A stretch of DNA of 64,000 nucleotides from the NCBI RefSeq assembly GCF_039778605.1, contig NZ_CP156060.1, positions 3,123,501 through 3,187,500 on the forward strand. Direction: 5' to 3'. Under the pieces are notes generated by a model that saw only the letters and a list, made by a program, of their open reading frames with translations, did no database searches and was not told the origin of the DNA. Position 1 is the stretch's first letter. Every line of letters starts with the position of its first letter. The stretch is from Flavobacterium sp. WV_118_3 (GTDB lineage Bacteria > Bacteroidota > Bacteroidia > Flavobacteriales > Flavobacteriaceae). Shown one piece after another: positions 20,975 to 34,066 of this stretch. Both the position numbers and the translations under genes were made by a program.

Positions 20975-21172
20975 CTAGTCTCTCGTTACGGTATGATAAT
21001 ACTGGGCAGTAGGTTTTTTGTTATATGTTATTTCCCAAAACCCGTGATCCAATTGCCATAAAGAACCTACTGAGAACGTTCCTCCATTTACTTGTTGCAA
21101 CTGATCCTTATTTAATATTACAATAGCTGTTTTATCGAAAACAAGCTTATTGTTTGATTTCTGCTTTTTCAT
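20975..21172 (-). CDS. GG-leader precursor, Cys-free Trp/Tyr-rich core
   Basis: 65 residues. The leader MKKQKSNNKLVFDKTAIVIL continues NKDQLQQVNGG and matches the leader consensus of the array (K-L-x-F-x-K, L-N, V-N-G-G). The core starts TFSVGSLWQLDHGFW and ends YYHTVTRD. It has several Ser/Thr but no Cys. It is isolated, about 1.6 kb from the main array and just downstream of the short regulator, on the same strand. Probably a LanB/C39 substrate. Confidence 0.85.
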   Translation of the reverse strand: MKKQKSNNKLVFDKTAIVILNKDQLQQVNGGTFSVGSLWQLDHGFWEITYNKKPTAQYYHTVTRD

Positions 21173-21268
21173 TCTAAATTATTGTATTTAAAATTATCCC
21201 TTACTCTATTTCAGGATTTTCAGGTTACTCCTGTCAGGACTTTACGCGCGCCAGTCCAATAGCTATTT

Positions 21269-21436
21269 TTAGTTAAAAAGGGATTGAAATCCTCTTTTAA
21301 CCGTTTTAATAACAGTACCGCCAATCGGCTGAAAAATCAAACCGTTTCTTCTTGTTTTAGGGGAAACTTTACAATTCAGACAAATTGTAAATAATCGTTG
21401 TTCCTTTTTTCTTAAAGGGGTGTATTCGTGTTTCAT
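21269..21436 (-). CDS. Weak candidate small cationic protein
   Basis: 55 residues from ATG 21436. Rich in Lys/Arg, with a CLNC pair, a RRNG stretch and PIGG followed by TVIKTVKRGFQSLFN. The GG and cationic tail could make it a divergent precursor, but the leader lacks the LxFxK..ELN motif. It may be chance. Confidence 0.3.
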   Translation of the reverse strand: MKHEYTPLRKKEQRLFTICLNCKVSPKTRRNGLIFQPIGGTVIKTVKRGFQSLFN

Positions 21437-21560
21437 TTCAAAATTTGAAACTGTCTGTATTTGATTGGAGATTTTTAGACAGACATCAGGGGAGTTGTAT
21501 TCCATTTAACAGGGATACCTATGAGATATAAGAACTCTATTTCCTGTTTTGTGTTTTTGA

Positions 21561-21570
21561 AGTAGCTACT
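21561..21570. promoter_or_regulatory. Palindrome AGTAGCTACT, copy 1 (upstream of precursor 20975-21172)
   Basis: Perfect 10-bp palindrome within sequence shared with 31621-31630. In both places it lies 3' of a membrane AraC regulator gene and 5' of precursor genes on the same strand, so it could be an operator. Function not shown. Confidence 0.4.
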
Positions 21571-21772
21571 CATATTTAATAAAATACTTTCGCTACACAA
21601 AAACCCATCCGTTGCTGCTCTCGAAATGCCTTGATTGTATCGTCACATCTCTCCTTCATCAACACGGCAAAGAAATGTCGCTTTTTTGGCTTCCACAAAC
21701 AAACTCACCCTATTTTTATAAAAAACCGGTACACTTTTAACCAATTAAAAACCTAATTAACAGCAACTTAAT

Positions 21773-22450
21773 TCAGATTGAAGTATGTTTCATTTTTTCT
21801 ATTTTTCTGATGTAAACTGCGGGTGAAACACCAGTAGCTACTTTAAAATATTTAGTAAAAGAATCCGGACTTTTATATCCGATCTCATCTGCTATCGCAC
21901 TTATCGAATAAGACCGAAGCCTTGAATTACTTTTTAATTCCGAAATGACATAATTAATTCGAAGCTCGTTAATATAATTGCTAAAGCTCTTCCCCAGTTC
22001 ATTGTTTACAATTCTGGACAGGTAAGCGGTATTTGTTTTTAATTTTTTAGCAACATTATGTAGGGTACAATCCTGACGCAGAAAATATTTTTGTTGTGCC
22101 AGTTTTTTTAATTTCTCAAGTATGTCCTTTATCCGTTCGTCCGTAATCGTAAATGTTGCATCATCCGGAAAATCTTTTCGACCATTGTTATTTTCAGAAA
22201 TAAACAATACGTTCTTCTGCTGTCCTTTTCTCAGTTCAAAATCATTAATCTTATTGAATAAAATCTGAAACTTTTCCTTATGCTCCTTTTCACTTTTACT
22301 GTACCAGTAATAACAAAAAACAAAAATGATTAAGACAATAACCAACAGTATACCCAATAAACAGAATATATATGTGGCTTCTAAAGTCGAAAAAAAAGTT
22401 ATTTTCAGAAACACCGTAAAACAAATGTTATTGTTTTCAAATACTACCAT
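21773..22450 (-). CDS. Short membrane AraC-type regulator lacking TPR sensor
   Basis: 225 residues. One strong membrane segment (FCLLGILLVIVLIIFVFCYY) lies near 28-50. Then comes a short linker with FNKINDFE, and the AraC domain (about 110-218): RQDCTLHNVAKKLKTNTAYL and DEIGYKSPDSFTKYFKVATGVSP. From the linker to the end it is closely similar to the C-terminal third of the 618-residue regulator at 31842, but the signal peptide and TPR region are missing. It is either a truncated paralogue still able to bind the same DNA, or a decayed copy. The frame is intact, so I call it a gene. Confidence 0.85.
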   Translation of the reverse strand: MVVFENNNICFTVFLKITFFSTLEATYIFCLLGILLVIVLIIFVFCYYWYSKSEKEHKEKFQILFNKINDFELRKGQQKNVLFISENNNGRKDFPDDATFTITDERIKDILEKLKKLAQQKYFLRQDCTLHNVAKKLKTNTAYLSRIVNNELGKSFSNYINELRINYVISELKSNSRLRSYSISAIADEIGYKSPDSFTKYFKVATGVSPAVYIRKIEKMKHTSI

Positions 22451-22471
22451 ATTTAGCTTTTTTCAAGAAAA

Positions 22472-22479
22472 CAAAAATA
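22472..22479 (-). promoter_or_regulatory. -7-like element upstream of short regulator
   Basis: caaaaata (tatttttg on the minus strand) fits TAnnTTTG. It lies 22 bases before the start codon, the same place as the element 23 bases upstream of the long regulator (33721-33728). No -33 box at normal spacing. Otherwise nothing was seen in 22451-22726. Confidence 0.4.
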
Positions 22480-22726
22480 ACCATTTGACTATCAGACCAC
22501 TAAAAAACAATTCAACTTTAACAAGTAGCTTATAAACATGATTTTGTATAACATATGATTTCTATTATGACTTACTTTCTATAAACTAGAATGGTTAAAA
22601 AAAAATTGAAAATAAACAACTTAAATACTGTTTATAATGCTAAAAAAATATTTTTTAAATCGTTATAATAATTACTCCTGGCAAACAGAATCTACTCTTC
22701 TTTTATTTGATTTAATGCCAATAAAA

Positions 22727-22757
22727 AAGGCTATCTATTACAGATAGCCTTTTTTAC
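22727..22757. terminator. Terminator at the 3' end of the precursor array
   Basis: aaaaaaggctatct pairs with agatagcctttttt across ATTAC. It has A/T runs on both sides and lies just beyond the last (leftmost) precursor gene of the minus-strand array. Confidence 0.8.
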
Positions 22758-22771
22758 GTCTGCTGTAAAAC

Positions 22772-22924
22772 TTATTCAGCCAGCAGGTAATAGGTCATTA
22801 CTCCTGAAGTACAAGGACACATATAAGGAGTGGTTCCACCATTCACATCGTGAAACGGATTGTCGTTTAATTTCGCTAATGCTCTTTTAGTAAAAACTAA
22901 TCCGGTTTCGCTTTGTGTTTTCAT
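22772..22924 (-). CDS. GG-leader precursor with CPC core (array unit 1, 3'-most)
   Basis: 50 residues. The leader MKTQSETGLVFTKRALAKLN is followed by DNPFHDVNGG. The core is TTPYMCPCTSGVMTYYLLAE: the same TTP start as its 16 neighbours but with two Cys (CPC) and three further Ser/Thr. It is a diverged end member of the tandem family. The first residue after GG is Thr, as in most of the set. Confidence 0.9.
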   Translation of the reverse strand: MKTQSETGLVFTKRALAKLNDNPFHDVNGGTTPYMCPCTSGVMTYYLLAE

Positions 22925-22950
22925 AATTCTTTCGTTGTTGTTGTCTTGAA

Positions 22951-23112
22951 TTAGTCCAGTGCTTTGTCGATTGCGACATAAATTGAAAGGCCAATGATCA
23001 CTCCTACACATACCGGAGTCGTCCCACCGTTTACATCGTTTAATTGGTTGTCGTTTAGTTCTACTAATGAACTTTTAGCGAAAGCTAATTTGTTGGAAGT
23101 TTGTGTTTTCAT
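22951..23112 (-). CDS. Tandem precursor 1, core type SIYVA
   Basis: 53 residues: leader MKTQTSNKLAFAKSSLVELN, DNQLNDVNGG, then the core TTPVCVGVIIGL + SIYVA + IDKALD. The core is hydrophobic with one Cys four residues after Thr1. T-P-V-C has the spacing of nisin ring B (T-P-G-C). It is the reference sequence for the 16 copies: the others differ only at leader positions 5-6, the five-residue block and the last residue. The start is fixed at ATG 23112 because an A-rich initiation region lies directly upstream and all copies share it; an upstream in-frame ATG would read through the preceding gene. Confidence 0.95.
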   Translation of the reverse strand: MKTQTSNKLAFAKSSLVELNDNQLNDVNGGTTPVCVGVIIGLSIYVAIDKALD

Positions 23113-23140
23113 AATTTTTGTGTTTTTTGTTGGTTAAAGA

Positions 23141-23302
23141 TTAGTCTAAAGCTTTGTCGATTGCGATGCTCATTGTTAGGCCGATGATTACTCCTACACA
23201 TACCGGAGTGGTTCCACCGTTTACATCGTTTAATTGGTTGTCGTTTAGTTCTACTAATGAACTTTTAGCGAAAGCTAATTTGTTGGAAGTTTGTGTTTTC
23301 AT
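23141..23302 (-). CDS. Tandem precursor 2, core type TMSIA
   Basis: 53 residues. TSN leader; variable block TMSIA, end ALD. Alpha spacer upstream. Confidence 0.95.
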   Translation of the reverse strand: MKTQTSNKLAFAKSSLVELNDNQLNDVNGGTTPVCVGVIIGLTMSIAIDKALD

Positions 23303-23330
23303 AATTTTTGTGTTTTTTGTTGGTTAAGGA

Positions 23331-23492
23331 TTAGTCTAAAGCTTTGTCGATTGCGATGCTCATTGTTAGGCCAATGATCACTCCTACACATACCGGAGTG
23401 GTTCCACCGTTTACATCGTTTAATTGGTTGTCGTTTAGTTCTACTAATGAACTTTTAGCGAAAGCTAATTTGTTGGAAGTTTGTGTTTTCAT
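23331..23492 (-). CDS. Tandem precursor 3, core type TMSIA
   Basis: 53 residues. TSN leader; block TMSIA, end ALD. Differs from copy 2 only by silent changes. Confidence 0.95.
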   Translation of the reverse strand: MKTQTSNKLAFAKSSLVELNDNQLNDVNGGTTPVCVGVIIGLTMSIAIDKALD

Positions 23493-23520
23493 AATTTTTG
23501 TGTTTTTTGTTGGTTAAGGA

Positions 23521-23682
23521 TTAGTCTAAAGCTTTGTCGATTGCGATGCTCATTGTTAGGCCAATGATCACTCCTACACATACCGGAGTGGTTCCACCAT
23601 TTACATCGTTTAACTGGTTGTCGTTTAGTTCTACTAATGAACTTTTAGCGAAAGCTAATTTGTTGGAAGTTTGTGTTTTCAT
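23521..23682 (-). CDS. Tandem precursor 4, core type TMSIA
   Basis: 53 residues. TSN leader; block TMSIA, end ALD. Silent changes near the GG codons. Confidence 0.95.
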   Translation of the reverse strand: MKTQTSNKLAFAKSSLVELNDNQLNDVNGGTTPVCVGVIIGLTMSIAIDKALD

Positions 23683-23710
23683 AATTTTTGTGTTTTTTGT
23701 TGGTTAAAGA

Positions 23711-23872
23711 TTAGTCTAAAGCTTTGTCAATTGCGATGCTCATTGTTAGGCCGATGATCACTCCTACACATACCGGAGTCGTTCCACCGTTTACATCGTT
23801 TAATTGGTTGTCGTTTAGTTCTACTAATGAACTTTTAGCGAAAGCTAATTTGTTGGAAGTTTGCGTTTTCAT
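23711..23872 (-). CDS. Tandem precursor 5, core type TMSIA
   Basis: 53 residues. TSN leader; block TMSIA, end ALD. Alpha spacer upstream. Confidence 0.95.
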   Translation of the reverse strand: MKTQTSNKLAFAKSSLVELNDNQLNDVNGGTTPVCVGVIIGLTMSIAIDKALD

Positions 23873-23900
23873 AATTTTTGTGTTTTTTGTTGGTTAAAGA

Positions 23901-24062
23901 TTAGTCTAAAGCTTTGTCGATTGCGACATAAATTGAAAGTCCGATGATTACTCCTACACATACCGGAGTGGTTCCACCATTTACATCATTTAATTGGTTG
24001 TCGTTTAGTTCTACTAATGAACTTTTAGCGAAAGCTAATTTGTTGGTAGTTTGCGTTTTCAT
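23901..24062 (-). CDS. Tandem precursor 6, core type SIYVA
   Basis: 53 residues. TTN leader (residues 5-7); block SIYVA, end ALD. First copy preceded by the beta spacer. Confidence 0.95.
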   Translation of the reverse strand: MKTQTTNKLAFAKSSLVELNDNQLNDVNGGTTPVCVGVIIGLSIYVAIDKALD

Positions 24063-24088
24063 GTTTTTAAAGTTTTGTTGGTTAGAGA

Positions 24089-24250
24089 TTAGTCTAAAGC
24101 TTTGTCGATTGCGATGCTCATTGTTAGGCCGATGATCACTCCTACACATACCGGAGTGGTTCCGCCGTTTACATCGTTTAACTGGTTGTCGTTTAGTTCT
24201 ACTAATGAACTTTTAGCGAAAGCTAATTTGTTGGAAGTTTGCGTTTTCAT
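24089..24250 (-). CDS. Tandem precursor 7, core type TMSIA
   Basis: 53 residues. TSN leader; block TMSIA, end ALD. Beta spacer upstream. Confidence 0.95.
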   Translation of the reverse strand: MKTQTSNKLAFAKSSLVELNDNQLNDVNGGTTPVCVGVIIGLTMSIAIDKALD

Positions 24251-24276
24251 GTTTTTAAAGTTTTGTTGGTTAGAGA

Positions 24277-24438
24277 TTAACTTAAGGCTTTGTCGATTGC
24301 GATGCTCATTGTTAGGCCAATGATCACTCCTACACATACCGGAGTCGTTCCACCGTTTACATCGTTTAATTGGTTGTCGTTTAGTTCTACTAATGAACTT
24401 TTAGCGAAAGCTAATTTGTTGGTAGTTTGCGTTTTCAT
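24277..24438 (-). CDS. Tandem precursor 8, core type TMSIA, C-terminal Ser
   Basis: 53 residues. TTN leader; block TMSIA; ends ALS instead of ALD, adding a C-terminal Ser. Confidence 0.95.
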   Translation of the reverse strand: MKTQTTNKLAFAKSSLVELNDNQLNDVNGGTTPVCVGVIIGLTMSIAIDKALS

Positions 24439-24464
24439 GCTTTTAAAGTTTTGTTGGTTAGAGA

Positions 24465-24626
24465 TTAACTTAAGGCTTTGTCGATTGCGATGCTCATTGT
24501 TAGACCGATGATCACTCCTACACATACCGGAGTCGTTCCGCCATTTACATCATTTAACTGGTTGTCGTTTAGTTCTACTAATGAACTTTTAGCGAAAGCT
24601 AATTTGTTGGTAGTTTGCGTTTTCAT
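24465..24626 (-). CDS. Tandem precursor 9, core type TMSIA, C-terminal Ser
   Basis: 53 residues. TTN leader; block TMSIA; ends ALS. Confidence 0.95.
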   Translation of the reverse strand: MKTQTTNKLAFAKSSLVELNDNQLNDVNGGTTPVCVGVIIGLTMSIAIDKALS

Positions 24627-24652
24627 GTTTTTAAAGTTTTGTTGGTTAGAGA

Positions 24653-24814
24653 TTAGTCTAAAGCTTTGTCGATTGCGACATAAATTGAAAGTCCGATGAT
24701 CACTCCTACACATACCGGAGTGGTTCCACCATTTACATCGTTTAACTGGTTGTCGTTTAGTTCTACTAATGAACTTTTAGCGAAAGCTAATTTGTTGGAA
24801 GTTTGTGTTTTCAT
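24653..24814 (-). CDS. Tandem precursor 10, core type SIYVA
   Basis: 53 residues. TSN leader; block SIYVA, end ALD. Alpha spacer upstream, so it carries the older-looking flank inside a run of beta units. Confidence 0.95.
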   Translation of the reverse strand: MKTQTSNKLAFAKSSLVELNDNQLNDVNGGTTPVCVGVIIGLSIYVAIDKALD

Positions 24815-24842
24815 AATTTTTGTGTTTTTTGTTGGTTAAAGA

Positions 24843-25004
24843 TTAGTCTAAAGCTTTGTCAATTGCGACATAAATTGAAAGTCCGATGATCACTCCTACA
24901 CATACCGGAGTGGTTCCACCATTTACATCGTTTAACTGGTTGTCGTTTAGTTCTACTAATGAACTTTTAGCGAAAGCTAATTTGTTTGCGTTTTGCGTTT
25001 TCAT
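24843..25004 (-). CDS. Tandem precursor 11, core type SIYVA, NAN leader
   Basis: 53 residues. Leader residues 5-7 are NAN; block SIYVA, end ALD. Confidence 0.95.
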   Translation of the reverse strand: MKTQNANKLAFAKSSLVELNDNQLNDVNGGTTPVCVGVIIGLSIYVAIDKALD

Positions 25005-25030
25005 GTTTTTAAAGTTTTGTTGGTTAGAGA

Positions 25031-25192
25031 TTAGTCTAAAGCTTTGTCGATTGCGATGCTCATTGTTAGGCCGATAATTACTCCTACACATACCGGAGTG
25101 GTTCCACCATTTACATCGTTTAACTGGTTGTCGTTTAGTTCTACTAATGAACTTTTAGCGAAAGCTAATTTGTTTGCGTTTTGCGTTTTCAT
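25031..25192 (-). CDS. Tandem precursor 12, core type TMSIA, NAN leader
   Basis: 53 residues. NAN leader as in copy 11 but block TMSIA, a clear leader/core shuffle between adjacent copies. Confidence 0.95.
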   Translation of the reverse strand: MKTQNANKLAFAKSSLVELNDNQLNDVNGGTTPVCVGVIIGLTMSIAIDKALD

Positions 25193-25218
25193 GTTTTTAA
25201 AGTTTTGTTGGTTAGAGA

Positions 25219-25380
25219 TTAGTCTAAAGCTTTGTCGATTGCGATGCTCATTGTTAGGCCGATGATTACTCCTACACATACCGGAGTGGTTCCACCATTT
25301 ACATCGTTTAACTGGTTGTCGTTTAGTTCTACTAATGAACTTTTAGCGAAAGCTAATTTGTTGGAAGTTTGTGTTTTCAT
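25219..25380 (-). CDS. Tandem precursor 13, core type TMSIA
   Basis: 53 residues. TSN leader; block TMSIA, end ALD. Alpha spacer upstream. Confidence 0.95.
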   Translation of the reverse strand: MKTQTSNKLAFAKSSLVELNDNQLNDVNGGTTPVCVGVIIGLTMSIAIDKALD

Positions 25381-25408
25381 AATTTTTGTGTTTTTTGTTG
25401 GTTAAGGA

Positions 25409-25570
25409 TTAGTCTAAAGCTTTGTCGATTGCGATGCTCATTGTTAGGCCAATGATCACTCCTACACATACCGGAGTGGTTCCACCATTTACATCATTTA
25501 ATTGGTTGTCGTTTAGTTCTACTAATGAACTTTTAGCGAAAGCTAATTTGTTGGAAGTTTGCGTTTTCAT
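25409..25570 (-). CDS. Tandem precursor 14, core type TMSIA
   Basis: 53 residues. TSN leader; block TMSIA, end ALD. Beta spacer upstream. Confidence 0.95.
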   Translation of the reverse strand: MKTQTSNKLAFAKSSLVELNDNQLNDVNGGTTPVCVGVIIGLTMSIAIDKALD

Positions 25571-25596
25571 GTTTTTAAAGTTTTGTTGGTTAGAGA

Positions 25597-25758
25597 TTAA
25601 CTTAAAGCTTTGTCAATTGCGATGCTCATTGTTAGGCCAATGATCACTCCTACACATACCGGAGTCGTTCCGCCATTTACATCATTTAATTGGTTGTCGT
25701 TTAGTTCTACTAATGAACTTTTAGCGAAAGCTAATTTGTTGGAAGTTTGTGTTTTCAT
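25597..25758 (-). CDS. Tandem precursor 15, core type TMSIA, C-terminal Ser
   Basis: 53 residues. TSN leader; block TMSIA; ends ALS. Alpha spacer upstream. Confidence 0.95.
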   Translation of the reverse strand: MKTQTSNKLAFAKSSLVELNDNQLNDVNGGTTPVCVGVIIGLTMSIAIDKALS

Positions 25759-25786
25759 AATTTTTGTGTTTTTTGTTGGTTAAGGA

Positions 25787-25948
25787 TTAGTCTAAAGCTT
25801 TGTCAATTGCGACATAAATTGAAAGGCCGATGATTACTCCTACACATACCGGAGTCGTCCCACCATTTACATCGTTTAATTGGTTGTCGTTTAGTTCTAC
25901 TAATGAACTTTTAGCGAAAGCTAATTTGTTGGAAGTTTGCGTTTTCAT
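25787..25948 (-). CDS. Tandem precursor 16, core type SIYVA
   Basis: 53 residues. TSN leader; block SIYVA, end ALD. It is the 5'-most copy; its upstream spacer (attgtttgatttttaaaggt) is of neither type, marking the edge of the amplification. Confidence 0.95.
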   Translation of the reverse strand: MKTQTSNKLAFAKSSLVELNDNQLNDVNGGTTPVCVGVIIGLSIYVAIDKALD

Positions 25949-25974
25949 ATTGTTTGATTTTTAAAGGTTAAGAA

Positions 25975-26142
25975 TTAATTTACTGCTTGATCAGCCAATA
26001 AAGTAGTCGTAGAAGTAACCGTAAACAGTGTTGTTAAAATAAGAGGCGAGGTTCCACCTTTCACATCAATCATCTGACTGTTGTTTAATTCTACCAGGTC
26101 GTTTTTGGCAAAGGCCAGTTTGTTCGTGTTTTGTGTTTTCAT
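25975..26142 (-). CDS. GG-leader precursor, Cys-free Thr-rich core
   Basis: 55 residues. The leader MKTQNTNKLAFAKNDLVELN continues NSQMIDVKGG. The core starts TSPLILTTLFTVTSTTTLLA and ends DQAVN. Ten of 25 core residues are Ser/Thr and there is no Cys, so the LanB product could not form lanthionine on its own. Confidence 0.92.
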   Translation of the reverse strand: MKTQNTNKLAFAKNDLVELNNSQMIDVKGGTSPLILTTLFTVTSTTTLLADQAVN

Positions 26143-26166
26143 CGTTGTTGTTTTTATCGTTAAGAC

Positions 26167-26346
26167 TTAATTTTTTTCCGCTTGATCAAATATTACAGGA
26201 GATGTAGCTGTAACAAGAGATGTGGATCCAACTATTGTTGTCGCAATGATAGAGGTTCCACCTTGCACATTGATCATCTGGTTACTGTTTAATTCTACCA
26301 GGTCGTTTTTGGCAAAGGCCAGTTTGTTGTGGTGTGTTGTTTTCAT
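26167..26346 (-). CDS. GG-leader precursor, Cys-free Thr/Ser-rich core
   Basis: 59 residues. The leader MKTTHHNKLAFAKNDLVELN continues SNQMINVQGG. The core starts TSIIATTIVGSTSLVTATSP and ends FDQAEKN. Ten of 29 core residues are Ser/Thr; no Cys. The DQA near the end recurs in the gene at 25975. Confidence 0.92.
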   Translation of the reverse strand: MKTTHHNKLAFAKNDLVELNSNQMINVQGGTSIIATTIVGSTSLVTATSPVIFDQAEKN

Positions 26347-26364
26347 GGTTTTATGGTTTAAGGT

Positions 26365-26529
26365 TTAGTTGCTCGTTTCCATTTCTTTTTCTATAAAAAT
26401 GGTTATGCCTATAATGGATGAAGGAAAAAAGGGAGATGTTCCGCCTTGTACGTCCAACATCTGACTGTTATTTAGTTCGACTAAATCGTTTTTGGCAAAG
26501 GCCAGTTTGTTGCGGTGTGTTGTTTTCAT
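26365..26529 (-). CDS. GG-leader precursor, Cys-free Phe/Pro core
   Basis: 54 residues. The leader MKTTHRNKLAFAKNDLVELN continues NSQMLDVQGG. The core starts TSPFFPSSIIGITIFIEKEM and ends ETSN. No Cys; sister of the two genes on its left by leader sequence. Confidence 0.92.
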   Translation of the reverse strand: MKTTHRNKLAFAKNDLVELNNSQMLDVQGGTSPFFPSSIIGITIFIEKEMETSN

Positions 26530-26551
26530 GGTTTTCGTTTTTGAGTATTGC

Positions 26552-26707
26552 TTATTCCGCCATCATGGCTTCAATAACCACTATGGTTACTATGGCTAAT
26601 GTTACTGTTGGTGTCGATCCTCCATTGATTTCCATTAAATGTGCATCGTTTAATTCGGTAACAGCGCTTTTGGTAAAAGCGAGTTTGTTGGTGTTTTGTG
26701 TTTTCAT
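26552..26707 (-). CDS. GG-leader precursor, Cys-free hydrophobic Thr core
   Basis: 51 residues from ATG 26707. The leader MKTQNTNKLAFTKSAVTELN continues DAHLMEINGG. The core is STPTVTLAIVTIVVIEAMMA plus a final Glu. It is almost purely aliphatic apart from Thr, so it could span or insert into a membrane. Confidence 0.92.
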   Translation of the reverse strand: MKTQNTNKLAFTKSAVTELNDAHLMEINGGSTPTVTLAIVTIVVIEAMMAE

Positions 26708-26976
26708 ACTGTTGTTGTTTTTTAGGTTGTGAATAATCATACCGGTTCCGACGCAAGTAAACAGATGTTCTCTTACCGCTGGTTTTCTCCGTTATGTCGT
26801 GTGATTTTTTCCGCTTAAAGTCCGGACGACTTTCTGTTTTACTTACGACAAATCCGTCGTAATTCGTTATCGTAACGATTATGATCCGCTTTTTATATAG
26901 TTGTAATGATCCTTGTTAAGAATCTTATTCCGAAAAAAGCAGTCAATGGATCGTATCGGTTTTCCGGTTTTATTTA

Positions 26977-27129
26977 TTATGCTTCCAGATAAGTGGCTGC
27001 CAATATCGATACCGTTACAATAAGGGTTACTGTTATCGAACCACCATTTACAGTGTTCAATTGATCGTCATTTAATTCTACTACAGAATTTTTGGCAAAA
27101 GCCAATTTGTTGGTGTTTTGTGTTTTCAT
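26977..27129 (-). CDS. GG-leader precursor, Cys-free SITVT core, copy 1
   Basis: 50 residues from ATG 27129. The leader MKTQNTNKLAFAKNSVVELN continues DDQLNTVNGG. The core is SITVTLIVTVSILAATYLEA: six Ser/Thr, no Cys, otherwise aliphatic. Confidence 0.93.
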   Translation of the reverse strand: MKTQNTNKLAFAKNSVVELNDDQLNTVNGGSITVTLIVTVSILAATYLEA

Positions 27130-27398
27130 ACTGTTGTTGTTTTTTAGGTTGTGAATAGTCATACCGGTTCCGACGCAAGTAAACAGATGTTCTCTTACCG
27201 CTGGTTTTCTCCGTTATGTCGTGTGATTTTTTCCGCTTAATGTCCGGGCGACTTTCTGTTTTACTTACGACAAATCCGTCGTAATTCGTTATCGTAACGA
27301 TTATGATCCGCTTTTTATATAGTTGTAATGATCCTTGTTAAGAATCTTATTCCGAAAAAAGCAGTCAATGGATCGTTTCGGTTTTCCGGTTTTATTTA

Positions 27399-27551
27399 TT
27401 ATGCTTCCAGATAAGTGGCTGCCAATATCGATACCGTTACAATAAGGGTTACTGTTATCGAACCACCATTTACAGTGTTCAATTGATCGTCATTTAATTC
27501 TACTACAGAATTTTTGGCAAAAGCCAATTTGTTGGTGTTTTGTGTTTTCAT
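27399..27551 (-). CDS. GG-leader precursor, Cys-free SITVT core, copy 2
   Basis: Protein identical to that at 26977-27129, created by the 422-bp duplication. Confidence 0.93.
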   Translation of the reverse strand: MKTQNTNKLAFAKNSVVELNDDQLNTVNGGSITVTLIVTVSILAATYLEA

Positions 27552-27682
27552 ACTGTTATTGTTTTTTAGGTTGTGAATAGTCATACCGGTTCCGACGCAA
27601 GTAAACAGATGTTCTCTTACCGCTGGTTTTCTCCGTTATGTCGTGTGATTTTTTCCGCTTAAAGTCCGGACGACTTTCTATT

Positions 27683-27856
27683 TTACTTACGACAAATACG
27701 TCGTTTACAACCGTTTGTACCGTAGCATCCGTATCCCGAACAGGTTTCTCCGTCAACAATAGTCAATCCATCATTACCATTGATTCTGTCTGCAGGGTTT
27801 AATGCTGCTACCGAACTTTTCGCAAAAGTCTGTTTCGTGTACTGTGTTGTTTTCTT
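27683..27856 (-). pseudogene. Precursor pseudogene with start codon changed to AAG
   Basis: The frame matches the 58-residue gene at 28361-28537 nearly end to end: FAKSSVAALNPAD versus FAKISVAELNPAD, then TIVDGETCSGYGC versus TIVGGETCSGCVC. The initiator ATG reads AAG and no alternative start lies upstream. The GG motif has become DG, and ELN has become ALN. The array therefore also loses members. Confidence 0.85.
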
Positions 27857-27868
27857 GAGATCGCCTTT

Positions 27869-28045
27869 CTATTCCTGAGCCAATACGGTATTCATCGTTC
27901 CCGTATAAACAATCGTATAAAAGATTGCCGAACCGGAACATAACGGGGTTGATCCGCCGTTGATATCGTGTAACTGATTGTTATTTAATTCCACTAAAGA
28001 ATTTTTAGCAAAAGCAAGCTTTGTTGGTGTGTTTGTTGTTTTCAT
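27869..28045 (-). CDS. GG-leader precursor, STPLC core
   Basis: 58 residues. The leader starts MKTTNTPTKLAFAKNSLVEL and ends NNNQLHDINGG. The core starts STPLCSGSAIFYTIVYTGTM and ends NTVLAQE. It has one Cys in the same T-P-x-C spacing as the 16 tandem copies. Confidence 0.92.
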   Translation of the reverse strand: MKTTNTPTKLAFAKNSLVELNNNQLHDINGGSTPLCSGSAIFYTIVYTGTMNTVLAQE

Positions 28046-28068
28046 CTTTTTTTGTTTTTTATGTATAT

Positions 28069-28233
28069 TTAATTCAGGTTTTTTCCAACTGTGTAACCTG
28101 CAGCTACAGATATAGCCACTACAATTGCACTAAGTAACAGAGATCCGCCATTTACATTGTTTAAATGATCATCGTTTAATTCCACGATGGCGTTTTTGGC
28201 AAAGGCCAGTTTGGTTGTGTTTTGTGTTTTCAT
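28069..28233 (-). CDS. GG-leader precursor, Cys- and Thr-poor hydrophobic core
   Basis: 54 residues from ATG 28233. The leader MKTQNTTKLAFAKNAIVELN continues DDHLNNVNGG. The core starts SLLLSAIVVAISVAAGYTVG and ends KNLN. Three Ser and one Thr, no Cys; resembles a membrane helix with a polar end. Confidence 0.92.
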   Translation of the reverse strand: MKTQNTTKLAFAKNAIVELNDDHLNNVNGGSLLLSAIVVAISVAAGYTVGKNLN

Positions 28234-28360
28234 ACTGTTGTTGTTTTTAGGTTCTGAATAGCCATGCCAAGCCTGACGCAAGCAAACATTCGTTTCTTAC
28301 CGCAGTTGTATCCGCTATCTATTGTGATTTTTTTCGCTTAATGTCCGGTCGACCTTGCAT

Positions 28361-28537
28361 TTAGGCTACGGCAAATCTATCGTTTACAATTGTTTGCACC
28401 GGAAGGCATACGCATCCCGAACAGGTTTCTCCACCTACAATTGTCGATCCGCCGTTAATCATTATCATATCTGCAGGATTTAATTCTGCTACCGAAATTT
28501 TGGCAAAAGCCAGTCTGTTGTTGTGTGTTGTTTTCAT
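28361..28537 (-). CDS. GG-leader precursor, CSGCVC core
   Basis: 58 residues. The leader MKTTHNNRLAFAKISVAELN continues PADMIMINGG. The core starts STIVGGETCSGCVCLPVQTI and ends FAVA. Three Cys in C-x2-C-x-C, shared with the gene at 30075. The second GG inside the core could be an alternative cleavage site. Confidence 0.92.
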   Translation of the reverse strand: MKTTHNNRLAFAKISVAELNPADMIMINGGSTIVGGETCSGCVCLPVQTIVNDRFAVA

Positions 28538-28548
28538 AGGGCTTTCGT

Positions 28549-28731
28549 TTAGGGCTGTAGTTTCGTGATATTGCGAATCGGTCCCGGAACCAAAATACAG
28601 TCACCACAAATCAATGTCGTTTGTTCGTTGATGGTGTCTCCTCCGCCGGCAATCTGGCGCATTGTGGATTGGTTTAATTCTGTAATATCATTTTTCTTAA
28701 AATGAAGCTTGTTTTGGTCTGCTTTTTTCAT
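28549..28731 (-). CDS. GG-leader precursor, CGDC core with PGPI
   Basis: 60 residues from ATG 28731. The leader MKKADQNKLHFKKNDITELN continues QSTMRQIAGGG. The core includes EQTTLICGDCILVPGPI and ends NITKLQP. Very similar to the gene at 30522. Confidence 0.92.
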   Translation of the reverse strand: MKKADQNKLHFKKNDITELNQSTMRQIAGGGDTINEQTTLICGDCILVPGPIRNITKLQP

Positions 28732-28744
28732 ATTTCTTATTTTT

Positions 28745-28909
28745 TTAGTTGTTGTCAAATTTTTCGGTAATCGTTTGTAAGGTCATCGTGATCAAAGTTG
28801 TACTCGATGGTGTCAGCGTTCCGCCGGCTATAGCAGCCATGGTTTGTTCGTTTAACTCGGTTATCGAGCGCTTTTGAAACGTCAGTTGGTGGGTTGTTCC
28901 TTTTTTCAT
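28745..28909 (-). CDS. GG-leader precursor, Cys-free Thr-rich core (TLTPSS)
   Basis: 54 residues. The leader MKKGTTHQLTFQKRSITELN continues EQTMAAIAGG. The core starts TLTPSSTTLITMTLQTITEK and ends FDNN. Ten of 24 core residues are Ser/Thr, no Cys. Confidence 0.92.
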   Translation of the reverse strand: MKKGTTHQLTFQKRSITELNEQTMAAIAGGTLTPSSTTLITMTLQTITEKFDNN

Positions 28910-28919
28910 AGCTCCCGCT

Positions 28920-29090
28920 TTATAATAATGTCATGTCATTTTCGGTTCCCACGGTAAGAATCACCAGTGACGTTGTCCCGATAAAGGTTGTACTTCCGGT
29001 TCCTCCGGCAATCGCATTCATTTTTTGTTCGTTTAATTCAACCAGTGAATTTTTACGAAACATCAGTGCGTTATTCGTTTGCTGTTTCAT
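28920..29090 (-). CDS. GG-leader precursor, Cys-free Thr-rich core (TGSTT)
   Basis: 56 residues. The leader MKQQTNNALMFRKNSLVELN continues EQKMNAIAGG. The core starts TGSTTFIGTTSLVILTVGTE and ends NDMTLL. Ten of 26 core residues are Ser/Thr, no Cys. The 293 bases upstream (29091-29383) hold no gene I can recognise. Confidence 0.92.
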   Translation of the reverse strand: MKQQTNNALMFRKNSLVELNEQKMNAIAGGTGSTTFIGTTSLVILTVGTENDMTLL

Positions 29091-29383
29091 GTTTCTTATT
29101 TTTTTGGTTTATCCGTTTTCGTGACGATATAGCATACCGCCTGGTTATTTTCAATCCCCGGAACGACTGGCAAACAGGCAGAATTGGTCGGCGTTGCGCT
29201 GTTGCAACGTACGGTTCCCTTCTATCATCGGGTTATACATGCCCGTTTGCTATGGTTCACGGATGATGCTGTTTTTTGATCTTTTGGCAGACATCTTTTC
29301 GATATCGCTATCGGATCCAATCAATAATGGCGCTTCTTTCTTATGAAAGTTTTTTTCGTTTTTATGAGATTACGTCATTGCTT

Positions 29384-29548
29384 TTAGCGCACTACTTTAT
29401 TGATGGCCGTATACATCGTTATCATTACTAATGATGTACCTCCTGCCATAGTTAATGTACCTCCGATAATGGTCGCCATTTTCGGTTCGTTTAATTCAAC
29501 TAATGCTGTTTTATGGAATTCCAGCTTACTGATGGTTTTCTTTTTCAT
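29384..29548 (-). CDS. GG-leader precursor, Cys-free Thr/Met core
   Basis: 54 residues. The leader MKKKTISKLEFHKTALVELN continues EPKMATIIGG. The core starts TLTMAGGTSLVMITMYTAIN and ends KVVR. No Cys; a second GG lies within the core. Confidence 0.92.
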   Translation of the reverse strand: MKKKTISKLEFHKTALVELNEPKMATIIGGTLTMAGGTSLVMITMYTAINKVVR

Positions 29549-29560
29549 AGCTTTATTTTT

Positions 29561-29722
29561 TTAGTTGATCGCCATTCCATTTTTAATGCGACTGGTAACC
29601 ACTACACACTCTCCACATACGAAGGTTGTCGCGCCGCCATTTACCTGGTTCATCACTTCTAAATCCAGTTCTGCAACCGCACTCGATTGAAATGCAAGTT
29701 TATTTGTTGCTTGTGTTTTCAT
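29561..29722 (-). CDS. GG-leader precursor, CGEC core
   Basis: 53 residues. The leader MKTQATNKLAFQSSAVAELD continues LEVMNQVNGG. The core starts ATTFVCGECVVVTSRIKNGM and ends AIN. Paralogue of the next gene. Confidence 0.92.
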   Translation of the reverse strand: MKTQATNKLAFQSSAVAELDLEVMNQVNGGATTFVCGECVVVTSRIKNGMAIN

Positions 29723-29797
29723 AAGGTTTTACTTTTTGTTGTTGTTAAATCTTCCGTGCAATGTTCCTGGAATTATGTTCAAATTCCGGACGTATTG

Positions 29798-29953
29798 TTA
29801 GTCCAATGCCTTCTCGATACGGCTGGTAATTACCACGCAGTCACCACAGATAAAGGTTGTCACGCCGCCAATTACCTGATGCATTGTTGTTACATCCAGT
29901 TCGGCAACTGCATTCGATTGGAATACCAATTTGTTTGTTACTTGTGTTTTCAT
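29798..29953 (-). CDS. GG-leader precursor, CGDC core
   Basis: 51 residues. The leader MKTQVTNKLVFQSNAVAELD continues VTTMHQVIGG. The core starts VTTFICGDCVVITSRIEKAL with a final Asp. Core and leader pair with the gene at 29561. Confidence 0.92.
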   Translation of the reverse strand: MKTQVTNKLVFQSNAVAELDVTTMHQVIGGVTTFICGDCVVITSRIEKALD

Positions 29954-30074
29954 ACTACTGTATTTTTTCGTTTTGATTATGGATTACTTCATCATAGTCC
30001 ATAATTATCCTGTTGCCAAACAGCTGCCGCTGTTCACATTATAAAGAATAGGACTATAAAGAGAGGGGATTTAC

Positions 30075-30251
30075 TTACAGCGCTTCGATCTGCATGATGG
30101 TTCCGATAACGGAGATACATACGCATCCCGTACAGGTTTCGCCACCCATAATCGTACTACCGCCATTAATCGTTATCATTTCCGTAGCATTTAATTCTGC
30201 GATGTCATTTTTTGCAAATAACAATCGGTTTGTTGTGTGTGTAGTTTTCAT
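30075..30251 (-). CDS. GG-leader precursor, CTGCVC core
   Basis: 58 residues. The leader MKTTHTTNRLLFAKNDIAEL continues NATEMITINGG. The core starts STIMGGETCTGCVCISVIGT and ends MQIEAL. Paralogue of 28361-28537. Confidence 0.92.
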   Translation of the reverse strand: MKTTHTTNRLLFAKNDIAELNATEMITINGGSTIMGGETCTGCVCISVIGTIMQIEAL

Positions 30252-30262
30252 AAGGTTGTCGT

Positions 30263-30421
30263 TTATACCTGTGGTTTTATCATGTCTTTTAACTTATCAC
30301 CTATATAGTTGATGATCGCATCCATTGAACCGCCGTTTACGTTTTGTAACTGGTTGTCGTTTAGTTCTACTATTGCATTTTTTGCAAAATCAAGACGATT
30401 GTTGTGTTTTGTCGTTTTCAT
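30263..30421 (-). CDS. GG-leader precursor, amphipathic core with one Ser
   Basis: 52 residues from ATG 30421. The leader starts MKTTKHNNRLDFAKNAIVEL and ends NDNQLQNVNGG. The core is SMDAIINYIGDKLKDMIKPQ with a final Val: one Ser, no Thr, no Cys, alternating hydrophobic and charged residues as in an amphipathic helix. Little for LanB to modify. Confidence 0.9.
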   Translation of the reverse strand: MKTTKHNNRLDFAKNAIVELNDNQLQNVNGGSMDAIINYIGDKLKDMIKPQV

Positions 30422-30521
30422 AAGATTGTTTTTTGTGTTAAACATTGTTTTTTAGAAGAAAAACCGTTGCTTTCGTAGTGTTTTAACCGAATAGTACGGT
30501 TTTTCCTCTTTTGAAATTATA

Positions 30522-30707
30522 TTAGAACTGTGCTTTAATTATTGTTCTGATGGGTCCCGGAACCGGAATACAATCACCACAGATAATGGTTGTTTGCTCT
30601 TCAACGATGGTTGTTCCACCACCTACTACGTTGCGCATTGCTGTTTGATCTAATTCTGCTACTGAACTTTTCTTAAAAGTAAGTACGCTTTTGTTTTCTT
30701 TTTTCAT
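30522..30707 (-). CDS. GG-leader precursor, CGDC core with PGPI
   Basis: 61 residues. The leader MKKENKSVLTFKKSSVAELD continues QTAMRNVVGGG. The core includes EQTTIICGDCIPVPGPI and ends TIIKAQF. Sister of 28549-28731. Confidence 0.92.
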   Translation of the reverse strand: MKKENKSVLTFKKSSVAELDQTAMRNVVGGGTTIVEEQTTIICGDCIPVPGPIRTIIKAQF

Positions 30708-30769
30708 GATTTAAAAATTAAGAGTTATTACAATTGATTAAAATTTGTTTTTACAGTGCCTGATAACCA

Positions 30770-30970
30770 TTATAGTGGTCCGGTCATAGGGTTGAATTCG
30801 GTGGTATAGTGTCCTTTACTGGAGTTCACACAAAACGTGCAGCTCAATGGATTGTTGGTTAGCAGTACGTCTGTACCACCGCCACCGTTGATTCTTTTTA
30901 ATTCTTCTCCGTTAAGTTCCGCTACGGAACTTTTATAGAAGAATAGCATGTCGATTCTTTGATTTTTCAT
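30770..30970 (-). CDS. GG-leader precursor, CTFC core
   Basis: 66 residues, the longest of the set. The leader MKNQRIDMLFFYKSSVAELN continues GEELKRINGGGG. The core includes NNPLSCTFCVNSSKGHYTTE and ends PMTGPL. Two Cys in C-x2-C and a polar tail. Confidence 0.9.
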   Translation of the reverse strand: MKNQRIDMLFFYKSSVAELNGEELKRINGGGGTDVLLTNNPLSCTFCVNSSKGHYTTEFNPMTGPL

Positions 30971-31055: not shown

Positions 31056-31217
31056 CTATTGCTTTTTTTGAGGCTTTGCTGTAAAAAATCGGGTTACAGC
31101 CCTAAAAAATCGCTTCACCGAAGCATAAAATCGAGATTCTTGTACCGCTTCGTCATTCAATTCGACGATGGTGTTCTTTTTAAATCGCGACGGGTTGATC
31201 ATTTTTTTCGTTTTCAT
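31056..31217 (-). CDS. Leader-like small protein without GG and with a cationic tail
   Basis: 53 residues. Positions 11-22 read RFKKNTIVELND, the array's leader motif, but the expected M..INGG is replaced by EAVQESRF. The tail is strongly basic and aromatic (YASVKRFFRAVTRFFTAKPQ, then KKQ). It is the 5'-most gene of the array. It cannot be a normal C39 substrate; possible roles are an immunity or helper peptide, or a decayed precursor. Confidence 0.65.
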   Translation of the reverse strand: MKTKKMINPSRFKKNTIVELNDEAVQESRFYASVKRFFRAVTRFFTAKPQKKQ

Positions 31218-31600: not shown

Positions 31601-31620
31601 TATGCCTTTTGTGTTTTTTG

Positions 31621-31841: not shown

Positions 31842-33698
31842 TTATAATGTACTTTCTTCTTTATGTTTCATTTCTTCTATTTTTTTGATGTAAATCGATG
31901 GTGTAATACCTGTTGCCGCCTTAAAATATTTGGTAAAAGAGTCGGAACTTTTATAGCCAATCTCATCGGCAATCGAACTTACCGAGTACGCCCGTAACTT
32001 CGAATTGTTCTTTAATTCCAATATTACATAGTTAATCCGAAGCTCATTAATATAGGTACTAAAGCTTTTTCCAAGCTCATTGTTCACAATCTTGGACAGA
32101 TAGGCCGTATTGGTTTTTAATTTTTTGGCCACATTATGTAGCGTACAGTCCTGTCGGAGGAAGTATTTCTTTTCCTGAAGTTTTTCCAGTTTTTCCAATA
32201 TATCATTTACCCGCTCATCTTTAATGATAAAGGTTGCATCGGTAGGCACAACATCCTGATGCGCAATCGTTTCGCTTTCTACATCAAAGGTTTCTTGCGA
32301 TTCCAGAGGTTCTTCCAGTGGAACTTCTCTTGCTCCGGATTCCGCTGTCTCAATAATGTCTTCTTCCTTGCTAATGGTTATGTTTGGAATAAGCTGACTT
32401 TCGAGGATGTCTTCTTTTGTCTTACTTTTTGTTGTTTTTTCCTGTTCTTCTAATAGCTTTTTAGCCTCGAAATCGTTGATCTTCCCAATCAAAATATCAA
32501 ATTTCTCCTGGTTGACTCTTGCGTTTCTCTTATTTCGGAAATAGAAAAAGCCTAAAAATCCGATTAACAATAAAACCGCAACAATCAGAATGTTTTTTTG
32601 TTTTACCTCATCAGTCTTTTCCTTATCAATCTTTTCAATGTCGATTTTATGTAAATCTTCCAGTGTTCCGATTTTTTTTGCCGATTTTTTGGAGTTTTCA
32701 TCAATAAACTTCTGATAATAAAAGTTCGATTGTCCAATACTATCTATCGCTTTATAGTTTTCGGCCAGCAATTTGTAATAATCCGTTAGCTCTTCCGGTG
32801 CAAAGTCCGATTTATTCTGTTTGGATAAACCAGCCTTTAGTACTCGGTTCGATTCATTATACTGCTTCTGTTCGCTCCTTAAACCGGCCAAGCTTAGCAT
32901 TACTGTGGCTTCGATCCGTTTGTTTTTGATTTTAATCGCTTTTTGCAAGGCTTCATTCAAAACCGCTTCGGTGTCTTTGTAGTCTTTTTTCTTTAAAAAG
33001 CTCAATCCTTTTACGTTTAGGAAATAGACTTCCAGTTCTTTATCGTTTGCCGCTTTGCAATAGTCCAACCCCTTATTGATATAAATCATCGACGAATCCG
33101 GCTGGTTCATTTTCAGATAGGTCTTCGCGATTTTGAGTTCCAGCGAGGCCCGTTCTGATTTGGAAATATCGTCGTTGTTCAAATATCGTTTAAAAACTGC
33201 CAGTGCTTCACTGTGTTTCCCGATTTCGTATTTGATATTCGCAATACTAATACTGATGCTCCGAACGCTATAGGAATCTTTTAATTTATTAGCCAGTTGA
33301 AGTGCTTCGTTGTACAATAATAAGGCCTGTTCAAAATTGTAGGTCTGGTAGAGTAAACTCGCTTTGTTGATCTTGGCTCGCAAAACCAGATTCTGGTTAT
33401 TGGCTCCGTAGGCCTTGATAATCGCTTTGTCACAAAAATAAAAAGCGCTATCGGTTTCCGATAACGTCATACATACATACCCCAAATAATTATACGCAAT
33501 GATTACATCGTTGTCTTCTTTTTGCTTTTCACTAATCGACAAATACCGATGAATGTATTTTTTGGCCAGCGCCGGATTGCTGTAAATATATTTCTGAATA
33601 GAATCTTTTAACTGATTCTTTGTATCTGTTGCTAAAATCGATTGAAAACTCAATAGAAATGCACAAAGAAAAACTCTTTTTAGTAGGGAAAGCAACAT
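31842..33698 (-). CDS. TPR-sensor transmembrane AraC-type regulator
   Basis: 618 residues. The N-terminal signal sequence (LKRVFLCAFLLSFQSILA) is followed by TPR-like helical repeats to about 350, for example AYNYLGYVCMTLSETDSAFY and AKTYLKMNQPDSSMIYINKG. A membrane segment ILIVAVLLLIGFLGFFYF lies near 370-390, then an acidic linker, then the AraC domain (about 500-605) with RQDCTLHNVAKKLKTNTAYL and DEIGYKSSDSFTKYFK. This topology puts the TPR sensor outside the inner membrane and the DNA-binding domain in the cytoplasm. It lies next to the array and probably controls it. The domain order is seen; the target is inference. Confidence 0.9.
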   Translation of the reverse strand: MLLSLLKRVFLCAFLLSFQSILATDTKNQLKDSIQKYIYSNPALAKKYIHRYLSISEKQKEDNDVIIAYNYLGYVCMTLSETDSAFYFCDKAIIKAYGANNQNLVLRAKINKASLLYQTYNFEQALLLYNEALQLANKLKDSYSVRSISISIANIKYEIGKHSEALAVFKRYLNNDDISKSERASLELKIAKTYLKMNQPDSSMIYINKGLDYCKAANDKELEVYFLNVKGLSFLKKKDYKDTEAVLNEALQKAIKIKNKRIEATVMLSLAGLRSEQKQYNESNRVLKAGLSKQNKSDFAPEELTDYYKLLAENYKAIDSIGQSNFYYQKFIDENSKKSAKKIGTLEDLHKIDIEKIDKEKTDEVKQKNILIVAVLLLIGFLGFFYFRNKRNARVNQEKFDILIGKINDFEAKKLLEEQEKTTKSKTKEDILESQLIPNITISKEEDIIETAESGAREVPLEEPLESQETFDVESETIAHQDVVPTDATFIIKDERVNDILEKLEKLQEKKYFLRQDCTLHNVAKKLKTNTAYLSKIVNNELGKSFSTYINELRINYVILELKNNSKLRAYSVSSIADEIGYKSSDSFTKYFKAATGITPSIYIKKIEEMKHKEESTL

Positions 33699-33720
33699 AT
33701 TTTAACAGGTTTTTGTATAA

Positions 33721-33728
33721 CAAAAATA
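33721..33728 (-). promoter_or_regulatory. -7-like element upstream of long regulator
   Basis: caaaaata (tatttttg on the minus strand), 23 bases from the start codon, matching the arrangement at the short regulator. No -33 box at normal distance. Confidence 0.4.
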
Positions 33729-33829
33729 ACATTTTTTTATTAAGAAAAATTTATTTATAACAAACTGATTCACAAATGTTTACAAATTCAAAAAACAGTA
33801 TTTTTTTTATAAATTTAGGCATACTTGAC

Positions 33830-33860
33830 TTTGATTATCAGGCTTTTAGGTCTAGTTTTG
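33830..33860 (+). promoter_or_regulatory. Consensus promoter for the plus-strand precursor
   Basis: TTTG (33830-33833), exactly 19 bases, then tagttttg (33853-33860): a full Flavobacterium consensus. The expected start is about 20 bases before ATG 33887. Confidence 0.7.
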
Positions 33861-33886
33861 AATCAACAAATAAAAACCCACACACC

Positions 33887-34066
33887 ATGAAAACTACAAA
33901 AAACAATTTACTTGCGTTCAAAAAAACATCAATTGTTGAACTATCAAAAAGCGACTGTTCTAAAATAAAAGGCGGTAACGATGTTACCGATCCAATCACC
34001 GATCCGGACCGAAGCGGAATCTATTCCTTACTGTGTCCGACCACTCACCCCACAAGACCGAATTAA
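33887..34066 (+). CDS. GG-leader precursor on the opposite strand, Asp/Pro-rich core
   Basis: 59 residues from ATG 33887; the frame is open further upstream but the promoter at 33830-33860 fixes this start. The leader MKTTKNNLLAFKKTSIVELS continues KSDCSKIKGG. The core starts NDVTDPITDPDRSGIYSLLC and ends PTTHPTRPN: polar, one Cys, unlike the array cores. The single gene has its own promoter and terminator and is divergent from the regulator, so it may be separately controlled. Confidence 0.85.
   Translation: MKTTKNNLLAFKKTSIVELSKSDCSKIKGGNDVTDPITDPDRSGIYSLLCPTTHPTRPN

Follow-up and report, generated by a model that had tools for sequence, protein, structure and literature searches.

This study concerns a gene cluster within a 64,000-nucleotide stretch of DNA from Flavobacterium sp. 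WV_118_3, whose genome is a single contig of 3.85 Mb. This stretch is referred to as the window and its positions are used throughout. The cluster comprises an array of small genes encoding precursors with double-glycine (GG) leaders, a full-length LanB dehydratase, an LtnJ-like reductase, a C39 exporter with its HlyD-type adaptor, and a regulator combining tetratricopeptide repeats (TPRs) with an AraC-type DNA-binding part. The enzyme and export genes are located on the plus strand, and the array lies on the minus strand, facing them. Related genomes are designated by G numbers and individual loci by L numbers.

Precursor array

A regular expression recognized 38 intact GG-leader open reading frames, 37 on the minus strand (20975-30970) and one on the plus strand (33887-34066), in agreement with the count given in a preliminary description of this DNA. 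The same expression gave 0-2 matches in each of 60 first-order Markov sequences derived from this region (6 in total) and none in the rest of the window. One looser expression produced a spurious antisense match at 16748, and another produced 39 matches in the window, the extra one being untraced; 38 is the number used here. The preliminary description had also ascribed three motifs to all the precursors. L-x-F and GG are indeed present in 38/38, but the strict forms of K-L-x-F-x-K and (V/I)-x-E-L-(N/D) occur in 27/38 and 13/38, respectively. The predominance of Thr or Ser after the GG run was confirmed (34/38).

The 38 genes encode 28 distinct precursors with 24 distinct cores. A tandem block (22772-25948, minus strand; Tandem Repeats Finder period 190, 16.6 copies, 91% matches) consists of a diverged member (22772-22924) and 16 near-identical precursors (22951-25948), with cores including TTPVCVGVIIGL. 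The 16 copies carry only three cores, in 5, 8 and 3 genes, and given that the gaps between them are 26-28 bp, they read as one operon. Eight further precursors, seven of them with a Cys-less core, occupy 25975-28233 (minus strand; regular expression and repeat scan), a segment that contains a 422-bp repeat (26668-27704). The pseudogene reported earlier was located at 27695-27859 (minus strand) by a tblastn search in which the intact precursors were the queries and the masked region the target (E 1.8e-12): it is 63% identical over 43 residues to the precursor at 28361-28537 and has lost its GG. The array is completed by a block of 11 precursors (28361-30970, minus strand) and by the most distal member (20975-21172, minus strand), which lies beyond a truncated AraC gene.

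The NCBIfam model lant_leader_L1a (NF038153) matched 24/24 members of alignment A1 at E values up to 1. Three scores were seen, of which 40.3 bits, for the most distal precursor, is above the 22-bit cut-off, and 16.2 and 21.3 bits are below it. PF10439 matched 8/24 members (best 0.0066).

Modifying enzymes and exporter

As previously claimed, the cluster encodes a single dehydratase, a single reductase and a single exporter, here assigned as a LanB, an LtnJ-like protein and a C39 protein; one HlyD protein is also encoded. A second LanB of the genome, at C1:534707, lies outside the cluster.

The dehydratase (16527-19700, plus strand) contains both the glutamylation domain (PF04738, Lant_dehydr_N, 8.7e-129) and the elimination domain (PF14028, Lant_dehydr_C, 6.5e-63), and its structure matches were NisB (4wd9/6m7y) and 9g04. 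A PEARL-like (peptide aminoacyl-tRNA ligase) LanB was considered by comparison with the features of PEARLs and was rejected because the elimination domain is present. The patterns R...R.TPFG, E..RYG and H(M/L)..NR, which we take to be related to the catalytic residues of NisB, are kept in 13/13 array-clade LanBs. A regular expression for the region of NisB R786 gave no match in any of these 13; visual inspection shows a longer loop ahead of HLRFR. The closest named LanB found is that of Flavobacterium supellecticarium, with 99% identity. In a sample of 398 Flavobacterium genomes, with the best 2 candidates per genome scored, LanBs at least 59% identical were found in 9, and the other listed matches were at most 39% identical.

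The product of the neighbouring gene (19704-20792, plus strand) is a medium-chain reductase that is 29% identical over its full length to LtnJ of pMRC01, from the lacticin 3147 system (150 bits, E 1e-46), and it shares the PGIP(S/T)N, TCG and NCLG stretches with the LtnJ family. Its membership of the LanJA dehydroamino-acid reductases is based on this full-length homology and the shared motifs; the best match to a solved structure is partial (33 bits). It is predicted to reduce dehydroalanine and dehydrobutyrine to D-Ala and D-2-aminobutyrate (D-Abu). A family-level search found the reductase in 3/397 genomes, including this one, the other two being of one genus. A protein search returned 102 proteins, the named sources of which include Flavobacterium, Corallibacter, Lacinutrix and Aquimarina.

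The exporter (14346-16505, plus strand; PF03412 6.7e-31, PF00664, PF00005) is a C39 peptidase-ABC protein in which the C39 Cys/His/Asp pattern, Walker A and the signature are all present. Its assignment as a C39 exporter is based on the catalytic residues in the C39 domain and on the GG-leader substrates, and it is predicted to cleave and export the latter. The periplasmic adaptor gene (13196-14353, plus strand) matches TIGR01843 (1.5e-35, under the curated cut-off) and PF13437 (1.4e-14), and it is syntenic in relatives. A terminator-like hairpin with a 12-pair stem, which is a consensus match only, separates the end of the reductase gene from the end of the array (20817-20843).

LanC genes and core composition

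The cluster itself lacks a LanC, and none was seen in the stretches fetched from related loci. A LanC belonging to the cluster was rejected, since the whole-genome search gave two LanCs, both located elsewhere with partners of their own. One adjoins a split LanB and a precursor that contains 5 Cys. The other forms a class V-like set (L012:7761-11042, C1 ~1688761-1692042) with a HopA1-family protein and an LxmK-like kinase, whose score of 67.7 bits is far under the model cut-off. LanC is absent from the whole genome in three of the nine genus members with this LanB (G179, G386 and G183, with a listed completeness of 99-100%), and the same holds for 2/2 genomes of another genus that were found via the reductase. 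In total, 5/11 genomes carrying this LanB system are LanC-free.

The cores also differ from those found beside LanC. All 24 window cores contain Ser/Thr, and 11 of them are Cys-less. Over 11 loci sets of the clade, 36 of 85 distinct cores are Cys-less, versus 0/8 precursors beside LanC in the same genus (taken from L011 and L054-L059); the 85-core set omits G591 and G391, includes divergent peptides and predates the fetch of further contigs. Ser/Thr is found at the first and second core positions after GG in 79% and 66% of the 85 cores, respectively. The contrast loci comprise nine loci with less similar LanBs (L054-L062), six of which (L054-L059) have a LanC-like gene and 1-2 Cys-bearing precursors adjoining the LanB. 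The LanC-free genomes, the Cys-less cores and the Ser/Thr-rich core starts together indicate that the constant step of the pathway is likely dehydration and not ring formation.

The remaining three contrast loci (L060, L061 and L062, from G157, G312 and G004), which were excluded from the 0/8 comparison, combine a split LanB with a TPR-type regulator and one small peptide of the GG type, and no LanC was recognized nearby. The neighbour in L061 is a subtilase (PF00082). These loci possibly represent a second LanC-less LanB arrangement.

Related clusters and selection on the cores

Large arrays recur in relatives, each with its own amplified cores: TTPVCVGV in F. supellecticarium, SLLISIAVAAGGALVGAGIAYLLS in G382 and TSPLC(I/V)GVIIG in G183. 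A looser pattern, with divergent peptides included, gave 30 GG genes in F. supellecticarium, 32 in G186, 27 in G382, 24 in G345, 22 in G179 and 19 in G183, and smaller sets in G386 (9), G758 (8), G098 (4), G391 (1) and G591 (0). These counts are rough, as contigs break inside arrays and copies were possibly missed or double-counted; drafts may be incomplete, that of G391 being listed as 81% complete.

The window was compared with G382, whose LanB is 89% identical, and 10 reciprocal-best core pairs were obtained. Nine of these keep their order within the 11-gene block at 28361-30970, and the tenth is the plus-strand peptide. The collinearity of the nine pairs supports their orthology. The pooled ratio of nonsynonymous to synonymous substitution rates (dN/dS) over the 10 pairs was 0.10 for cores and 0.18 for leaders, with 0.04 for LanB; selecting the pairs for similar cores biases the set towards conserved ones, and 14/24 window cores have no such partner. 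By this measure the orthologous cores appear to be under purifying selection, and a core dN/dS of about 0.10 argues against a freely diversifying library. The array thus comprises a conserved collinear peptide set and a lineage-specific amplified part. The combinatorial system proposed in the preliminary description stands in so far as one modifying system is linked to many precursors, but in the 10 pairs compared the cores do not evolve faster than the leaders.

The cluster is flanked by hemF/DUF4421 (10865-12881) and hemB (34193-35167), and the same flanks are present in G382. In eight stretches from other relatives, hemE, hemF, DUF4421 and hemB all went undetected, which indicates that the module is not confined to a single genomic location.

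Regulator and accompanying peptides

The regulator gene (31842-33698, minus strand; PF13424, PF12833, hydropathy) encodes a hydrophobic segment (residues 5-23), TPRs, a second hydrophobic segment (365-389) and an AraC-type helix-turn-helix (HTH_18, 524-605). The TPR part is presumably periplasmic. In a search that scored the top 3 candidates of each genome (E up to 1e-50), the genomes with the regulator coincided exactly with the 9 of the LanB clade, and 0/389 others had it. This co-occurrence follows from linkage, yet it still indicates that the regulator gene belongs to the module. In the drafts G179, G186, G345 and G386 the regulator lies on a separate contig with array genes, and in G391 at a contig end. 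A truncated copy (21773-22450, minus strand; HTH_18 4.5e-16) retains a hydrophobic segment and the AraC helix-turn-helix, with no TPR part, and is 79% identical to regulator residues 484-613. It also occurs in F. supellecticarium (L005), and it is possibly a modulator or a relic.

A GG peptide gene is divergent from the regulator in 10/10 loci (window, G382, G183, G098, G179, G345, G386, G391, G186 and G758); of the two regulators in G186, each is paired with at least one divergent peptide of its own. In the window this gene (33887-34066, plus strand) encodes a candidate signal whose core contains TDPDRSGIYSLLC. All 16 database relatives of the G345 peptide, some of which share genomes, carry T(D/N)PRSM(Y/F)SMFC at or near the end, and the stretch between GG and this motif is variable. 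The matching stretches are TDPDRSGIYSLLC in the window and INPRTIFTTC in G098. The divergent peptide and the regulator could form a signal and receptor pair.

A candidate promoter of the flavobacterial consensus, TTG-N19-TAGTTTTG, lies 5' of the plus-strand peptide (33831-33860, plus strand; 8 such matches in 64 kb, both strands), and a terminator-like hairpin (34073-34094) follows the gene. A sigma-70 scan was uninformative, with 28 matches found versus 40.5 expected from shuffles.

The GG-less relative described earlier proved to be real and lies beside the regulator (31056-31217, minus strand). It has a leader-like sequence and a cationic C-terminus, and counterparts were found in 8/9 Flavobacterium genomes with the LanB, including this one and with two copies in G186; this count is not independent, as the regular expression was built from sequences already seen. 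Given that it has no cleavage site, this peptide should stay inside the cell, and our guess is a role in immunity or control. The precursor that adjoins it (30770-30970) carries CTFCVNSSKG, and similar C(T/S)(F/Y)C(I/V).SS(N/K)G stretches occur in both G382 and G098 and at three places in G186.

Discussion

We consider it reasonably probable, on the strength of the sequence comparisons, that the cluster is a LanC-free, LanB-based operon for multiple ribosomally synthesized and post-translationally modified peptides (RiPPs), which is regulated and yields modified peptides that are mainly linear, as opposed to a ring-bearing lanthipeptide library. According to this model, the membrane-anchored TPR-AraC protein would turn on the minus-strand array, and the L1a-type leaders would deliver each precursor to the single LanB. 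LanB would then dehydrate Ser/Thr, which most cores have at positions 1-2 after GG, often followed by Pro. The LtnJ homologue, where present, would convert some of the dehydro residues to D-Ala or D-Abu, and the C39-ABC/HlyD exporter would cleave at GG and secrete the peptides. With no cyclase, the products would be mainly linear dehydro or D-residue peptides, some of which might contain free Cys, disulfides or thioethers formed spontaneously. Together the peptides may serve as a bacteriocin-like cocktail, one part of it conserved and the other amplified within the lineage, and the divergent GG peptide may be an exported signal read by the TPR domain of the regulator.

The class I lanthipeptide assignment of the preliminary description is thereby retained in part. 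It is supported by a LanB with both domains, a leader of the class I type, and an enzyme set linked to dozens of precursors in a layout that recurs in relatives. For the products as a whole, a class I lanthipeptide identity is not supported, given the lack of a LanC in the cluster, the LanC-free genomes and the Cys-less cores. The regulator and the peptide next to it did not figure in the interpretation given in that description.

Several observations weigh against the model. LanC is present in 6/9 genus genomes and could act in trans, and 13/24 window cores have Cys, the amplified TTPVC core being one that could close a ring. The reductase is not in the cluster in 3/9 genus genomes (G183, G386 and G391, as judged from the fetched stretches) and is present in 6/9; D-residues are therefore not general, and reduction would be optional and not required. 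The ratio Ser/(Ser+Thr) in the cores was uninformative, as it failed to separate genomes with the reductase from those without. Other LanB patterns are not general in the array clade (GRF 12/13, DF..PR 4/13). The leaders also match TIGR04149, a model of peptides modified by radical S-adenosylmethionine enzymes (13/24, best 1.7e-4), and TIGR03949, a model of class IIb bacteriocins (10/24, best 1.5e-6). The 16 kb retrieved for G591 yielded no precursor, and no flavobacterial-type minus-strand promoter was found in front of the array. With regard to signalling, the peptide of G758 and the first one of G186 (G186a) do not have a motif of the PRSMYSMFC type, and the signal role is argued from position and, in one clade, from sequence conservation.

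The array might instead be a true class I lanthipeptide library in which a LanC encoded elsewhere closes the rings in trans and the Cys-less cores are side products. The two LanC genes of the genome, the leader family named for class I lanthipeptides, and the Cys-bearing cores (13/24), among which TTPVC, TSPLC and SSPAC could form a small thioether ring, speak in its favour. We nevertheless regard it as unlikely, because each LanC has its own dehydratase set (one with a split LanB, one class V-like), 11/24 window cores have no Cys, and the five LanC-free genomes include G183 and G386, whose cores carry TSPLC or TTP(F/I/V)C. The same two genomes keep LanB with neither a genomic LanC nor a reductase in the cluster, which would suit a pathway in which LanB dehydrates and Cys adds unaided, so that Cys cores become lanthipeptides and the others remain linear. 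The Thr/Ser-Pro-x-Cys spacing, which recurs across several species, points in this direction as well, but the C-x-x-C of several cores (CGDC, CTGC, CTFC) suits disulfides equally, and we give spontaneous cyclization a slightly lower probability than cyclization in trans.

It is also rather improbable that the products are essentially unmodified GG-leader bacteriocin-like peptides, with LanB acting on a few. The matches to TIGR03949 and PF10439 given above and the many cores that are hydrophobic by eye would be consistent with this; for the one member with coordinates shown, the bacteriocin-model match is placed in the leader. The three LanB motif groups are nevertheless kept in 13/13 loci, and Ser/Thr is favoured at the first two core positions, although at the first this could reflect a cleavage preference. 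Finally, the 16 near-identical copies, the pseudogene and the species-specific expansions might suggest that the array is a functionless tandem repeat, either decaying or selfish. This we find hardly credible in view of the 38 intact members versus one recognized pseudogene, the purifying selection suggested by a dN/dS of about 0.10 for orthologous cores, and the recurrence of the module in another genus.

The LanB-based, mainly linear pathway favoured here shares features with several known systems. With regard to peptide signalling, the RRNPP systems, in which peptides act through TPR proteins in quorum sensing, served as a comparison. As in these, a putative TPR sensor with a DNA-binding part neighbours an exported-type peptide gene, in 10/10 loci; in contrast, the candidate pair described here involves a membrane-anchored regulator whose hydrophobic segment and AraC helix-turn-helix differ from RRNPP proteins, and the host is Gram-negative. 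In class I lanthipeptide systems, of the nisin type and of the Bacteroidota GG-leader type, a full-length LanB, an L1a-type GG leader and a C39 exporter are likewise found, but the present cluster differs in the lack of LanC, the 11/24 Cys-less cores, the tens of precursors and the dedicated TPR-AraC regulator. Lacticin 3147 and rodencin, two-component lantibiotics with LanJA, share the LtnJ homologue, the GG leader and the C39 exporter, and the LtnA2 core likewise begins with TTP after GG; theirs are class II systems with LanM and thioether rings, whereas here a LanB is found and no cyclase.

Prochlorosins resemble the array in that one modifying enzyme (ProcM) serves tens of GG-leader precursors, up to 16 of them consecutive (PMC10783134). 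They differ in being class II, with highly conserved leaders, less conserved cores and genes that are often scattered (PMC10783134), whereas here the genes are at one locus and the orthologous cores are at least as conserved as the leaders. GG leaders with C39 proteases have been noted in class I clusters of Bacteroidetes by a survey that also lists dehydrogenases of the LanJA type for each of the four classes, including class I (PMC7268733). An LtnJ-type reductase alone is thus no difference from class I. By the account of that survey, D-amino acids had until then been observed only in class II; the survey began from LanC and dropped Cys-less cores. In PMC11519912, LanJ action is mainly described for class II, with one class V case; LtnJ-type enzymes reduce dehydroalanine to D-residues, and RodJA also acts on dehydrobutyrine. 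PMC10352776 mentions TPR genes next to RiPP clusters in Bacteroidales and a role of the pheromone type that they may have.

The leader family NF038153 and the Bacteroidetes GG/C39 class I precursors are therefore known already. No description of the LanC-free LanB/LanJ combination with large arrays and a paired regulator was found in the literature searched, which is weak evidence of novelty. We tentatively propose, with less confidence than the model itself, that the cluster may represent a new Flavobacteriaceae RiPP type, in which a cyclase-free class I dehydratase, often accompanied by LanJA, would act on large arrays to give a secreted cocktail of linear D-residue and dehydro peptides. This cocktail would be induced by a dedicated exported peptide (T(D/N)PRSM(Y/F)SMFC in one clade, TDPDRSGIYSLLC here) via a membrane-anchored receptor with extracytoplasmic TPRs and an AraC part.

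Mining that starts from LanC and drops Cys-less cores, as in PMC7268733, would miss clusters without a nearby LanC. The array would provide one LanB with dozens of natural substrates, and the regulator and its divergent peptide are a testable candidate for peptide signalling in Bacteroidota. If the model is true, these bacteria would use a class I dehydratase to make ribosomal peptides without rings, partly with D-residues.

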